Source: a virus
DNA length: 37,295 nucleotides
Reading direction: 5' to 3' (one strand)
Virus record (IMG/VR): IMGVR_UViG_3300033049_000022
Coordinates: 1-37,295 of that record
Program-made: the position numbers and the translations under genes
Shown here: piece by piece, positions 3,511 to 32,045 of the stretch
Position numbering within the stretch: the first letter of the stretch is position 1
Layout of the letters: each line of letters begins with the position of its first letter
Notes under the pieces: generated by a model
What the model was told of the DNA's origin: nothing
The model's input: the letters and a program-made list of their open reading frames with translations, nothing else
Database searches by the model: none

Positions 3511-3714
3511 TTATGTAGCTCCATGCGTTAAAAAGTCATTATAATGAAGGTCTAATTCTGCCATGATGCAGATCAGTCTTTTGCCGCTGGGAATGCGGTT
3601 ATTAGTTTCATAGTGAGAAATCCATGATTCGCTTTGATTGACTACAAGACCTAATTGCCGCTGTGTTAACCCCCGTTTTTTCCTGTGTTCTTTTATTGTA
3701 CGACCTATATCCAT
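3511..3714 (-). CDS. XRE-family HTH regulator, 67 aa
   Basis: Begins MDIGRTIKEHRKKRGLTQRQ, with the second helix and turn in LGLVVNQSESWISHYETN. This is a minimal Cro/C1-type DNA-binding protein. ATG 3714 follows GAAAGGAACGAAA. An earlier TTG (3768) has AAGGAG only one base away and is less likely. It ends two bases before the next regulator starts. No integrase accompanies the pair, so a role in early-gene timing is at least as likely as lysogeny control. Confidence 0.8.
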   Translation of the reverse strand: MDIGRTIKEHRKKRGLTQRQLGLVVNQSESWISHYETNNRIPSGKRLICIMAELDLHYNDFLTHGAT

Positions 3715-3810
3715 TTTCGTTCCTTTCAAATTAAACTTGCGTATCGCCAGAAGAGTGCTATACTGCAATCTCCTTGTTAGAATACTTTTTTACTAGTTCT
3801 CTCTCTTCCC

Positions 3811-3840
3811 GCCCACCGCTTGTTGCTTATCGCGGTGGGC
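3811..3840 (-). terminator. Perfect 9-bp hairpin without U-tract
   Basis: GCCCACCGC (3811-3819) and GCGGTGGGC (3832-3840) pair perfectly around a 12-base loop, ten bases after the stop of the 3850-4365 gene. Neither side has a run of U, so it is at best a weak or factor-dependent terminator. It could also be an RNA processing or stability element between two gene groups. Confidence 0.45.
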
Positions 3841-3849
3841 GTTCCTCGT

Positions 3850-4365
3850 TTATAACGCTGCGGCCATAGCCTGAACAGCCTCATAGCCATTCACAATTAA
3901 TCTATCACCGATGATATACCGATCCGTTAAATTAATTCCCGGGCCTTTCCGTGCCGGGGTGTTCTCGGCATACACCGGACTAAAGTGGCGCCGTATGATG
4001 TTTAACGTGAGGTCCATTTCGTTCGGTCCGGCCTCAATCGCCTTGGCGCAATTGCTTTTGTAACTCTCCCTACCCCTGAACATTGGGACGCACCGTATGC
4101 CATGCTTTTGGGTGTATGAGTATATCTTTTCACGCGATATTCCTAATTCACTGGCCATCTGCATGGGCGTCTTTGTCTTTGCCAGCTCAACAATACGGGC
4201 ATGGTGCTGCTCTATATAGCGTTGCGCGGGTTGGCACTTAATCCCTGATCGGGCGGCAATATTACGGACCCTTTGCGTCTGGCAGTTGCTTAATCTCGCT
4301 ATCTGCACCGCCGTGTGGGTTTGATGAAGGTCTATAATCCGCGCCCTTAGTTCTGTTGTGTTCAT
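3850..4365 (-). CDS. HTH DNA-binding protein with two tandem HTH-like segments, 171 aa
   Basis: Two similar N-terminal segments, LRARIIDLHQTHTAVQIARL and ARIVELAKTKTPMQMASELG, each followed by a recognition-helix-like stretch (NCQTQRVRNIAARSG; ISREKIYSYTQKHG). These are repeats of a homeodomain/HTH_23-like unit. The C-terminal part (IIRRHFSPVYAEN...GYEAVQAMAAAL) lacks a recognised domain. Its ATG overlaps the stop of the VRR-NUC gene (ATGA). A role in transcription or DNA organisation is inferred. Confidence 0.7.
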   Translation of the reverse strand: MNTTELRARIIDLHQTHTAVQIARLSNCQTQRVRNIAARSGIKCQPAQRYIEQHHARIVELAKTKTPMQMASELGISREKIYSYTQKHGIRCVPMFRGRESYKSNCAKAIEAGPNEMDLTLNIIRRHFSPVYAENTPARKGPGINLTDRYIIGDRLIVNGYEAVQAMAAAL

Positions 4366-6803: not shown

Positions 6804-6842
6804 TAACTAATTTGAAATATTAAAACGCCCGAAGGAACGGAT

Positions 6843-7770: not shown

Positions 7771-7962
7771 ATGAGTACACCACAAGAAGGTTCAACTGCG
7801 AAAGAGGAAATCATACATGCTATGTCGTCATTAAACATGTACCCAAGCACTACAAGTTTAGATGTGGATAAATACATTTCTGAGCAGTTATATCATGTTC
7901 AACATGCAATGGAACATTTGACCGCCGCGCTGGATAGGTTGTCCGGTAAAAATAATATTTAA
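7771..7962 (+). CDS. Hypothetical helical protein, 63 aa
   Basis: Begins MSTPQEGSTAKEEIIHAMSS and ends AMEHLTAALDRLSGKNNI, with a helix of heptad character in EQLYHVQHAMEHLTAALDRL. The ribosome module GAAAGGAACGGCA precedes the ATG. Its TAA merges with the next copy of the module, which starts the structured non-coding segment. No function is known. Confidence 0.65.
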   Translation: MSTPQEGSTAKEEIIHAMSSLNMYPSTTSLDVDKYISEQLYHVQHAMEHLTAALDRLSGKNNI

Positions 7963-8160
7963 ACGCCCGAAAGGGCTAAGAGGCTCCCTCGGGCCTACGG
8001 GTGGGGGACAATAGCGGGATGATAGTCCGTGTGTAGAAACGAAAAAAGGCTACACAAATAGCGTCAGTTGGTGGATCGGGTGATTATCCTATACAGGGTT
8101 CATGTCCTGTAGATTGAAATCGGATTATAGTAGCGAAAGCTGTTCCACCAACTCTATTAA
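7963..8160 (+). ncRNA. Candidate structured RNA in a 223-base non-coding gap
   Basis: Between 7962 and 8186 no gene fits, but several helices do. They are GCCC-GAAA-GGGC (7965-7976), AGGC/GCCT (7981-7996), GGAC/GTCC (8006-8028) and TGTGTAG/CTACACA (8030-8056). A 9-bp helix GTTGGTGGA (8067-8075) / TCCACCAAC (8144-8152) encloses TACAGG/CCTGTA (8092-8111) and AGC-GAAA-GCT (8132-8141). Two GAAA tetraloops occur only when the plus strand is read, which supports that orientation. It does not fit tRNA, tmRNA, group I intron or hammerhead. It could be a small phage RNA or a long structured leader of the next gene. Confidence 0.5.
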
Positions 8161-8185
8161 TTTTAAACGCCCGGAGGAGGTAACG

Positions 8186-8389
8186 ATGAGCAAGAATGAA
8201 AGAAACTTTTGGATCAAAGTGTCCGTATGCTTCATCTTGATTATTTCACTGTGCATTTGGGGCGCATTTGAAGATGCGAAAAGTAAAAGCAAAAGACACA
8301 AAGCATTTATGACTGAATGCTCGAAACAAGACCCGGAATACAAATGCAAGGTATTGTGGGTACAGCTCAATAATGGTAATTATTTTTAA
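8186..8389 (+). CDS. Small membrane-anchored protein, 67 aa
   Basis: One N-terminal membrane helix (VSVCFILIISLCIWGAF) is followed by a basic linker and a short domain with FMTECSKQDPEYKCKVLW. The EC...YKC...LW pattern is found in many tiny phage membrane proteins of unknown role. ATG 8186 has the excellent ribosome site GGAGGAGGT. An earlier in-frame ATG (8102) would translate through the structured segment and is rejected. The C-terminal domain would lie in the periplasm, where its two cysteines could pair. Confidence 0.7.
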   Translation: MSKNERNFWIKVSVCFILIISLCIWGAFEDAKSKSKRHKAFMTECSKQDPEYKCKVLWVQLNNGNYF

Positions 8390-8459
8390 GCGCCCAAATC
8401 TATACACGTCACGAAACCATGTATAGAAAACGGCAAAACTTATACAATAGGAGAGAGAC

Positions 8460-10833: not shown

Positions 10834-11003
10834 GCGATTTATGCCACACGGTCAGTGTTGGCCCATCAGACGATTTTAAAACAACTGTGAATGGTGATGT
10901 TTACGCCTGGAACTTTGAGACTCACCCTGAAGGTCCACAGGAAAACACCGTATATGATTTAGATAGTGGCGGATGGGAATTAATTAATGACCGCAAGCCC
11001 TAA
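10830..11003 (+). CDS. Hypothetical acidic protein, 57 aa
   Basis: ATG 10830 follows GGAAGGAG and overlaps the preceding stop as ATGA. The product begins MSDLCHTVSVGPSDDF and contains VNGDVYAWNFETHPEG and YDLDSGGWEL, all suggestive of beta strands. It overlaps the next gene by 17 bases. No family is recognised. Confidence 0.6.
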   Translation: MSDLCHTVSVGPSDDFKTTVNGDVYAWNFETHPEGPQENTVYDLDSGGWELINDRKP

Positions 11004-30248: not shown

Positions 30249-30763
30249 GACGGAACCTCGTTCAAATAACAAAATTCACTATCTACTTCTTTAGCTTTAG
30301 CGTTGTAAGCTCGGGCGGCATCATGTCTGCAATCAAACAACCCCAGTTCGATATATTCGCCGCCAACACTAATCCCCGCCGCCCACTTTTTAGGTAGCCC
30401 CCTCCAGTGTACGCATTTATAACCCGACTTATTTTTGTTCGATGTTGCTGTGTTTCTACTGTTTTGCTGAGCAGTACACTCTCGGAGATTGCTAAATCTG
30501 TTATCACTCTTAATGCGGTTGATATGGTCAATTTGATCTTTAGGCCATTCCCCGGTCATATAAAGCCACGCAATTCTGTGTGCATTGTACGGCTTTCCAG
30601 ATAGGCTTATCATAATATAATTATCGCGCAACCTCTTACTACCCGCTACATAACCAACACAATTCCTTGAACCTGTCTTTTTTATGCGCGTGAAATATCC
30701 TGTGTCTGGGTCATAGACATAATTTTTAGCCAAGTCTTTAAGTATCAATTGTTTGTCGATCAT
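30245..30763 (-). CDS. HNH homing endonuclease with AP2 domain, 172 aa
   Basis: The first half has the HNH core: AHRIAWLYMTGEWPKDQIDH, then INRIKSDNRFSNLRE and AQQNSRN. The second half matches the AP2 DNA-binding domain: KSGYKCVHWRGLPKKWAAGI then LGLFDCRHDAARAYNAKAKE. Such genes are free-standing homing endonucleases of phages. ATG 30763 has GGA before it; a longer ATG at 30802 lies within a 14-base direct repeat. It stands between small terminase and the rest of the late genes, next to a second homing-type gene. Confidence 0.85.
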   Translation of the reverse strand: MIDKQLILKDLAKNYVYDPDTGYFTRIKKTGSRNCVGYVAGSKRLRDNYIMISLSGKPYNAHRIAWLYMTGEWPKDQIDHINRIKSDNRFSNLRECTAQQNSRNTATSNKNKSGYKCVHWRGLPKKWAAGISVGGEYIELGLFDCRHDAARAYNAKAKEVDSEFCYLNEVPS

Positions 30764-30785
30764 GTGTAATTCCAATGTGTTCTGT

Positions 30786-30833
30786 ATTATATTATTACAC
30801 ATTGGCTAAAAGCGCAAGCTATTATTACACATT
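30786..30833. repeat. Two 14-bp direct repeats with a possible promoter
   Basis: TATTATTACACATT occurs at 30790-30803 and 30820-30833, exactly 30 bases apart, in the gap between small terminase and the HNH gene. A minus-strand TATAAT (30786-30791) abuts the first copy, without a good -35 at normal spacing. The repeats could be operators for a regulator, the scar of the HNH insertion, or a target of that enzyme. Confidence 0.5.
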
Positions 30834-30852
30834 CGGCATTTATCGGGGGGAT

Positions 30853-31299
30853 TTAGTCTTTAGGATCAATAATCGTCCTGGTAACCGTGGTAATAGCTAT
30901 GTCACCAGAATGTTCTTGCTCGCTCTTATCCTGCCAGGCTGCTCTATTCTTTAGCCATATGAATGCTGCGCCTGTATCTGGCGGGTAGTGCTTAATAGTA
31001 TCTGTCTTGGTTATCTTACCTTGGTAGTTAGAGATATGCACCTCATCATGGCTGTATCCCTTGGCTCTGTGGTATAACGCCTCTGCTATATCAGCGTCTG
31101 CAATATACTTACCCTTTTTAATGGACTCAAGAAACTCGGGTTGTTTTTTCTTCCACGCGTTAATGGTTTGCTCACTTACGTCAAAGAACTCAGACAGCCT
31201 TTTATCCGTAGCACCAAGTAAACAGTACTTATATGCTAGCCCTGCATACTCATCTTTGTAATCAGTAGGCCGACCGCCTGGGTGTTTTGTATTTGTCAT
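30853..31299 (-). CDS. terS: Terminase small subunit, 148 aa
   Basis: GGRPTDYKDEYAGLAYKYCL opens the protein, followed by an HTH (GATDKRLSEFFDVSEQTINA, WKKKQPEFLESIKKGK) and DADIAEALYHRAKGYSH with a C-terminal FIWLKNRAAWQDKSEQE, all features of small terminases that bind the packaging site. It overlaps the upstream GIY-YIG gene by TGATG. It is separated from the large subunit by seven genes, which is unusual. Confidence 0.85.
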   Translation of the reverse strand: MTNTKHPGGRPTDYKDEYAGLAYKYCLLGATDKRLSEFFDVSEQTINAWKKKQPEFLESIKKGKYIADADIAEALYHRAKGYSHDEVHISNYQGKITKTDTIKHYPPDTGAAFIWLKNRAAWQDKSEQEHSGDIAITTVTRTIIDPKD

Positions 31300-31829: not shown

Positions 31830-31908
31830 GGGTCATTCTCCATACTTGCTCACCACAGGGTAACTTGCCCTTGGCTTTGCAGTCCTTTACGTATTCTTGA
31901 TAGGTCAT
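31816..31908 (-). CDS. Very small ORF, 30 aa
   Basis: ATG 31908 overlaps the upstream stop as ATGA. The peptide MTYQEYVKDCKAKGKL PCGEQVWRMTRDRA is basic with two Cys. It bridges the gap between two genes and carries the ribosome site for the GIY-YIG gene. A role as a coupling leader is as likely as a function of its own. Confidence 0.4.
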   Translation of the reverse strand: MTYQEYVKDCKAKGKLPCGEQVWRMTRDRA

Positions 31909-32045
31909 CTCTTGCGCCTCACCCGCTTGCTCACAGTGCTGATTGCTTGGGCTATGGCCTGTTTGCGGGGCTTGCCCTCACCACGTAGCTTGCTGACCTT
32001 GCGGCTTACTCGCTTGTTGCGCTCTGATTTGGTATGATCTGGCAT
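31905..32045 (-). CDS. Small very basic protein, 46 aa
   Basis: Begins MPDHTKSERNKRVSRKVSKL and continues with RGEGKPRKQAIAQAISTVSK. This SKLRxEGxPxKQAxAIAxS pattern is typical of tiny basic phage proteins near structural or packaging genes (DUF6496-like). Nucleic-acid binding is likely from charge. ATG 32045 lies one base from the preceding stop with a poor ribosome site, so translation is probably coupled. Confidence 0.65.
   Translation of the reverse strand: MPDHTKSERNKRVSRKVSKLRGEGKPRKQAIAQAISTVSKRVRRKR

Follow-up and report, generated by a model that had tools for sequence, protein, structure and literature searches.

Position and coding status of the gap

The window, the whole 37,295-nt stretch analysed here, is a virus record of 37.3 kb. 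Its genes include those for an Erf-like annealing protein, an exonuclease, a NinB-like protein, a portal and tail proteins. Within the early operon, which runs rightward, a gene-free gap lies between two small early genes, about 1 kb upstream of erf; it extends from a stop codon at 7960-7962 to a start codon at 8186. Stops are found in all three plus-strand frames across 7963-8165, the 203-nt non-coding stretch of the plus strand that was folded, confirming that the gap picked out in a sequence-only reading of this DNA is real and non-coding. The same reading described a genome whose genes otherwise overlap. This is only partly correct, as other ORF-free stretches exist when judged against the listed ORFs of at least 60 aa, for example 10834-10986 and 31830-32045. 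The features discussed below are collected in Table 1.

Table 1. Features of the gap and of the phage RNAs compared with it (coordinates refer to the window unless a locus is named).
Feature	Coordinates	Strand	Description
Upstream gene	7771-7962	+	63 aa, no family
Leader motif copy	7958-7976	+	TTTAAACGCCCG; hairpin GCCC (7965-7968)-GAAA-GGGC (7973-7976); overlaps the upstream gene's stop codon
G+C-rich 5' module	7977-8028	+	Alternative pairings; alone no better than shuffles (z -1.09)
Helix-20-like stretch	8007-8031	+	GACAATAGCGGGATGATAGTCCGTG; profile score 19.05; rejected by covariance model
7-bp hairpin TGTGTAG/CTACACA	8030-8056	+	A-rich 13-nt loop; z about -2.4
3' module	8066-8153	+	10-bp closing stem; z about -2.8 to -2.9; at most 1% of shuffles
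Next leader copy	8162-8185	+	TTTAAACGCCCG, then strong Shine-Dalgarno (GGAGGAGG) of gene 8186
Downstream gene	8186-8389	+	67 aa, one hydrophobic segment, no family
Second L002 cassette	L176:12585-12790	-	Non-coding, structured (z -2.1), no Rfam match
Pseudomonas phage Phabio mimic	L243:3251-3303 (=L245:843-895)	- (L243)	Helices 18-20, 41.4 bits (R2)
RVTF4 mimic	L246:799-852		Jumbo Pseudomonas phage, 40.4 bits (R2)
D6 mimic	L247:849-901		Jumbo Pseudomonas phage, 34.8 bits (R2)
L242 mimic	L242:15-68	+	Best score, 72.6 bits (R2); edge of a 3.2-kb viral contig

Searches of the gap for promoter or terminator consensus sequences found none, so that the gap, if transcribed, would most simply be part of the early message. 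The operon starts about 1.1 kb upstream of the gap, which lies ahead of the recombination genes (erf, exonuclease), and sites of the put and nut types occur ahead of recombination genes in the early operons of lambdoid phages. A put-like or nut-like antitermination RNA, by which the polymerase reads through the early operon, would fit this order of genes, but we consider it extremely unlikely at such a distance from the operon start and not beside the promoter.

Copies of a leader motif, (TTTAA)ACGCCC, are present at 6824, 7067, 7751, 7962 and 8166 of the window, and many are present in its nearest relative, IMGVR_UViG_3300023443_001045 (L002/L176; Erf 51%, exonuclease 63%). ACGCCC followed by a purine-rich stretch opens the gap and stands before four genes (6843, 7081, 7771 and 8186). 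The copy at 7958 is a direct repeat of those at 6820, 7751 and 8162, and the window has two copies of the 12-mer TTTAAACGCCCG, which flank the gap at 7958 and 8162. As is required of a leader-punctuated cassette of this phage lineage, the (TTTAA)ACGCCC leader of the gap comes directly after the previous stop codon. In L002/L176, the leader often forms a small CGCCC-NNNN-GGGC hairpin, whose loop is GCTT, GATT or GGAT, and it stands ahead of many small genes. The 5' GAAA hairpin of the gap is one copy of this recurring gene leader rather than an element of a unique RNA. Because leader copies bound the gap on both sides, its format is that of an operon cassette with an RNA in the place of a gene.

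To our knowledge, the start-associated sequences (SAS/ESAS) are the nearest published parallel for such leader motifs. They are repeated motifs near gene starts in cluster K mycobacteriophages (PMC3203893) and resemble the leader in being short, in lying just upstream of many gene starts and in sometimes carrying an inverted repeat, whereas their sequence is unrelated and their hosts and phages are different. Unlike SAS/ESAS, one leader copy here opens a putative RNA cassette with no start codon behind it.

Folding of the gap and searches for relatives

The helices named in the sequence-only reading are largely present. The 7-bp stem is formed by TGTGTAG (8030-8036) and CTACACA (8050-8056) as described, and the two plus-strand GAAA loops (7969-7972 and 8135-8138) are each closed by at least 3 bp. 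The closing stem of the 3' module also exists, but it is 10 bp long and not 9, pairing AGTTGGTGGA (8066-8075) with TCCACCAACT (8144-8153), and it encloses the hairpins TACAGG/CCTGTA (8092-8097/8106-8111) and AGC-GAAA-GCT (8132-8141). In the 5' part, GCCCGA (7965-7970) can alternatively pair with TCGGGC (7989-7994), as had been suggested, and CGCCCG can pair with CGGGTG (7998-8003).

Such alternative pairings would suit an element that acts in cis within the polycistronic mRNA and governs its translation or decay around the 67-aa gene at 8186, and the gap lies directly ahead of this gene with its strong Shine-Dalgarno. The identical CGCCCG leaders at 7964-7969 and 8168-8173 could compete for the G-rich partners at 7989-7994 and 7998-8003, and an upstream TCCGG can pair with CCGGA beside the Shine-Dalgarno of gene 8186. 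However, the stable 3' domain closes at 8153 and does not include this Shine-Dalgarno, and the same leader motif also stands ahead of genes without any such RNA; we regard a cis element as a real possibility, if not a likely one.

A thousand dinucleotide shuffles of the gap served as the chance baseline for its folding. The minimum free energy of the 203-nt gap is -64.9 kcal/mol, compared with -54.7 +/- 4.3 in the shuffles (z -2.35; 1.6% as good), and a perfect stem of at least 10 bp and two or more GNRA hairpins arise in 1.1% and 0.5% of the shuffles, respectively. The four stems of at least 6 bp are ordinary and are matched by 18% of the shuffles, which does not support the unusual density of helices that had been claimed. 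The 3' module (8064-8155) has a z of about -2.8 to -2.9, and the 5' module alone a z of about -1.1. In a scan of the whole window with 200-nt segments on both strands, the best segment overlapping the gap (7901, plus strand; z -2.74) ranks 12th among 742 segments, and the gap folds better on the plus than on the minus strand. The evidence for structure in the gap is moderate, not striking.

These values also bear on the alternative that the gap is a spacer or a recombination remnant between leader motifs, with no RNA function and with stems that arose by chance. Each measure is only 1-2% significant and several measures were looked at, other segments of the window score better, and no conservation is shown for the gap, of which no homologue was found; yet the free energy, the longest stem and the GNRA hairpins all point one way, the plus strand folds better, and the relative L002 carries a convincing RNA of the same format. 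On balance, we consider a functionless spacer unlikely, but like the cis element it is a serious rival to an RNA cassette.

More unusual folds than that of the gap are found in the window at 3701-3900 (minus strand; z -4.0) and 30701-30900 (plus strand; z -4.4). In the former, CGCCCACCGC and GCGGTGGGCG form a strong hairpin within the gap that precedes a minus-strand gene.

With Rfam release 15, the gap shows no match at any gathering threshold and only chance matches up to E 10 (suhB, 17.4 bits versus 41; mir-379, 16.4 bits versus 56), in line with the earlier statement that it fits no nameable RNA class. ARAGORN detects no tRNA or tmRNA in the window. No homologues of the gap were found in phage records, IMG/VR or GTDB genomes, no DNA similarity to phages was found for the gap or for the first 24 kb of the window, and the gap has no DNA similarity to the fetched IMG/VR loci. 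Searches for relatives of the 67-, 63- and 219-aa proteins in IMG/VR and of the exonuclease in GTDB genomes were likewise negative. Pattern scans were no more productive: an exact-pattern scan with CAGTTGGTGGATCGGG returned 28 sites, all unrelated and close to the chance expectation in number, the pattern of the 10-bp stem matched once, by chance and with no further similarity, the helix-20-like pattern had no match in GTDB genomes, and the AGGGTGATAGTCCC pattern gave chance matches in IMG/VR, L002 excepted.

A mimic of 23S rRNA domain I in L002 and in giant phages

The small-gene operon of L002/L176 carries two non-coding RNA cassettes. One of them is a gene-free stretch at about 264-430 of L002 (plus strand) that folds with a z of -3.7, and cmscan assigns part of it to LSU_rRNA_bacteria (RF02541) at positions 330-384 (25.5 bits, E 4.8e-6). 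A covariance model of helices 18-20 built from nine bacterial 23S sequences only (R2) gives 50.8 bits for L002 and also detects L242 and the jumbo Pseudomonas phages Phabio, RVTF4 and D6 (Table 1); nothing else in the 1.08 Mb searched scores above 13.4 bits, compared with 34.8-72.6 bits for the five phage mimics. When the phage sequences are added to the alignment, two-sided changes are seen in 10 of the 12 pairs, and 89% of the cells are still paired. On these pairings and scores, the core of the L002:264-430 cassette (304-356), which is closed by a long stem of its own, is clearly a mimic of helices 18-20 of 23S domain I.

In Phabio, RVTF4 and D6, the mimic is situated within a long non-coding region that adjoins tRNA genes or lies between them, and the related region of Psa21 contains no mimic detectable with R2. 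In L242, the sequence after helix 18 is, by eye, not continued as 23S rRNA. The Phabio mimic falls within PHABIO_450, a gene annotated as hypothetical that may be spurious.

Other 23S-like matches were set aside. The match in Paenibacillus phage Pd_22F is a host 23S gene in the record, and those in several short 'phage' records are likewise host rRNA. The motif AGGGTGATAGCCCC is an isolated look-alike of helix 20 and is not counted as a mimic, since its scores are not significant either with a covariance model that includes the phage mimics (R1; 14.0 bits, E 0.59) or with the rRNA-only R2 (13.4 bits, E 1.5). It is present in L026:5700-6280 (minus strand), a long, gene-poor stretch of another Erf phage, and in L028.

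The helix 18-20 region of 23S domain I is a binding region of ribosomal proteins L4 and L24. In one study, 23S domain I was reported to be a strong competitor for L4 (PMC7186457). We found no reports of such phage 23S-mimic RNAs in the open-access literature, which does not in itself show that there are none.

We compared the gap with this mimic. Both the rRNA-only model and a mixed model of rRNA and phage mimics give 3.7 bits in the gap (with the rRNA-only model, E is 0.56 over 231 bases and several pairs are broken), and searches with the Rfam LSU model find no match there. The gap thus fails the covariance test as a mimic of 23S helices 18-20, at 3.7 bits against 34.8-72.6 for the true mimics. 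The 25-nt stretch 8007-8031 faintly resembles helix 20 and its flank, with a score of 19.05 that is reached in 2 of 1500 shuffles, against a profile of the stretch after helix 19 from nine rRNAs and three phage mimics; helix 20 reads GGUGAYAGYCC, and the gap reads GGGaUGAUAGUCC, with one extra base. Because the comparison came after looking at L002 and required indels, this resemblance is only a hint. The likeness to domain I (RF02541) covers these 25 nt; helices 18 and 19 cannot be cleanly drawn in the gap with standard pairs.

One alternative is that the gap is a diverged phage-borne mimic of 23S domain I that catches L4 or L24, with 8007-8031 as helix 20 and the 5' hairpin as helix 19. The shuffle result, the best covariance-model placement, which falls exactly at 8007-8031 with the helices in the right order, and the true mimic in L002 are in line with it, but the low bit score with its broken pairs and the negative result with the Rfam LSU model are not, and an AUAGUCC stretch is also present in non-mimic segments of D6 and Psa21, indicating that the motif arises elsewhere. 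A diverged mimic is therefore very unlikely.

We also compared the gap with the second L002 cassette. In a full-length collinear alignment, 23 of 400 and 38 of 400 shuffles score as well, which is marginal, and a local alignment with strict scoring does no better than chance. A shared hairpin, 8029-8056 in the gap and GTATGAGG..CTACATAA in L002, with one compensatory change, was dropped because it was seen by eye on a single alignment and MAFFT aligned the pair differently; the fold of the second cassette region alone does not favour this hairpin. The L002/L176 cassettes resemble the gap in being non-coding and about 165-210 nt long, in having the same kind of leader within a small-gene operon and in folding better than shuffles, but they have no significant sequence similarity to it, and one of them is a 23S mimic while the gap is not.

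The gap as a candidate RNA cassette

Because the gap is non-coding, has no Rfam match, is bounded by leaders and has a relative with a well-supported RNA cassette, a structured RNA of no catalogued class is a fair reading of it. An unclassified RNA cassette with a putative function is plausible. Among the readings considered, the most likely one, which we hold tentatively, takes the gap for a non-coding RNA cassette of the early operon whose folded RNA binds protein. Such a cassette would belong to the rightward early operon of a podovirus-like phage, and its RNA would be made within the early transcript, where the plus strand is predicted to form an A-rich hairpin and a 3' domain with a 10-bp closing stem. 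The RNA may bind a protein, whose role in the host would probably be in transcription or translation. This suggestion is drawn from the leader-punctuated operon of L002 with its two RNA cassettes, one of them a clear mimic of 23S domain I. The gap is linked to the L002 RNAs by operon format rather than by significant sequence similarity. A more specific version, in which the gap RNA belongs to a new class of ribosome-imitating phage RNA cassettes that capture a ribosomal protein during infection, is decidedly unlikely; the part of the host ribosome imitated would be 23S domain I, in much diverged form, or a different site.

Descriptions of phage non-coding RNAs are few, with 21 counted in a Grad-seq study of phiKZ (PMC8545117). 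The phiKZ RNAs described there resemble the gap RNA in being short, structured, intergenic or untranslated and co-transcribed with mRNA (the last presumed for the gap), although they come from a different phage and the likeness is one of description. By itself, the RNA of the window is one more unproven candidate, and its context matters more: compact copies of 23S helices 18-20, with their base pairs kept, occur outside rRNA genes in L002 and in giant Pseudomonas phages, and the giant phages that bear them are unrelated to the L002 lineage. We found no report of a phage handle acting through L4 or L24; if the mimics capture either protein, they would give the phage such a means of influencing ribosome assembly, the S10 operon, which L4 controls, or RNase E.

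Downstream of the gap, a further hairpin is found at 8399-8430 (plus strand), between the next two genes and behind a GCGCCC variant of the leader; its arms are TCTATACA and TGTATAGA, with a 13-nt loop.
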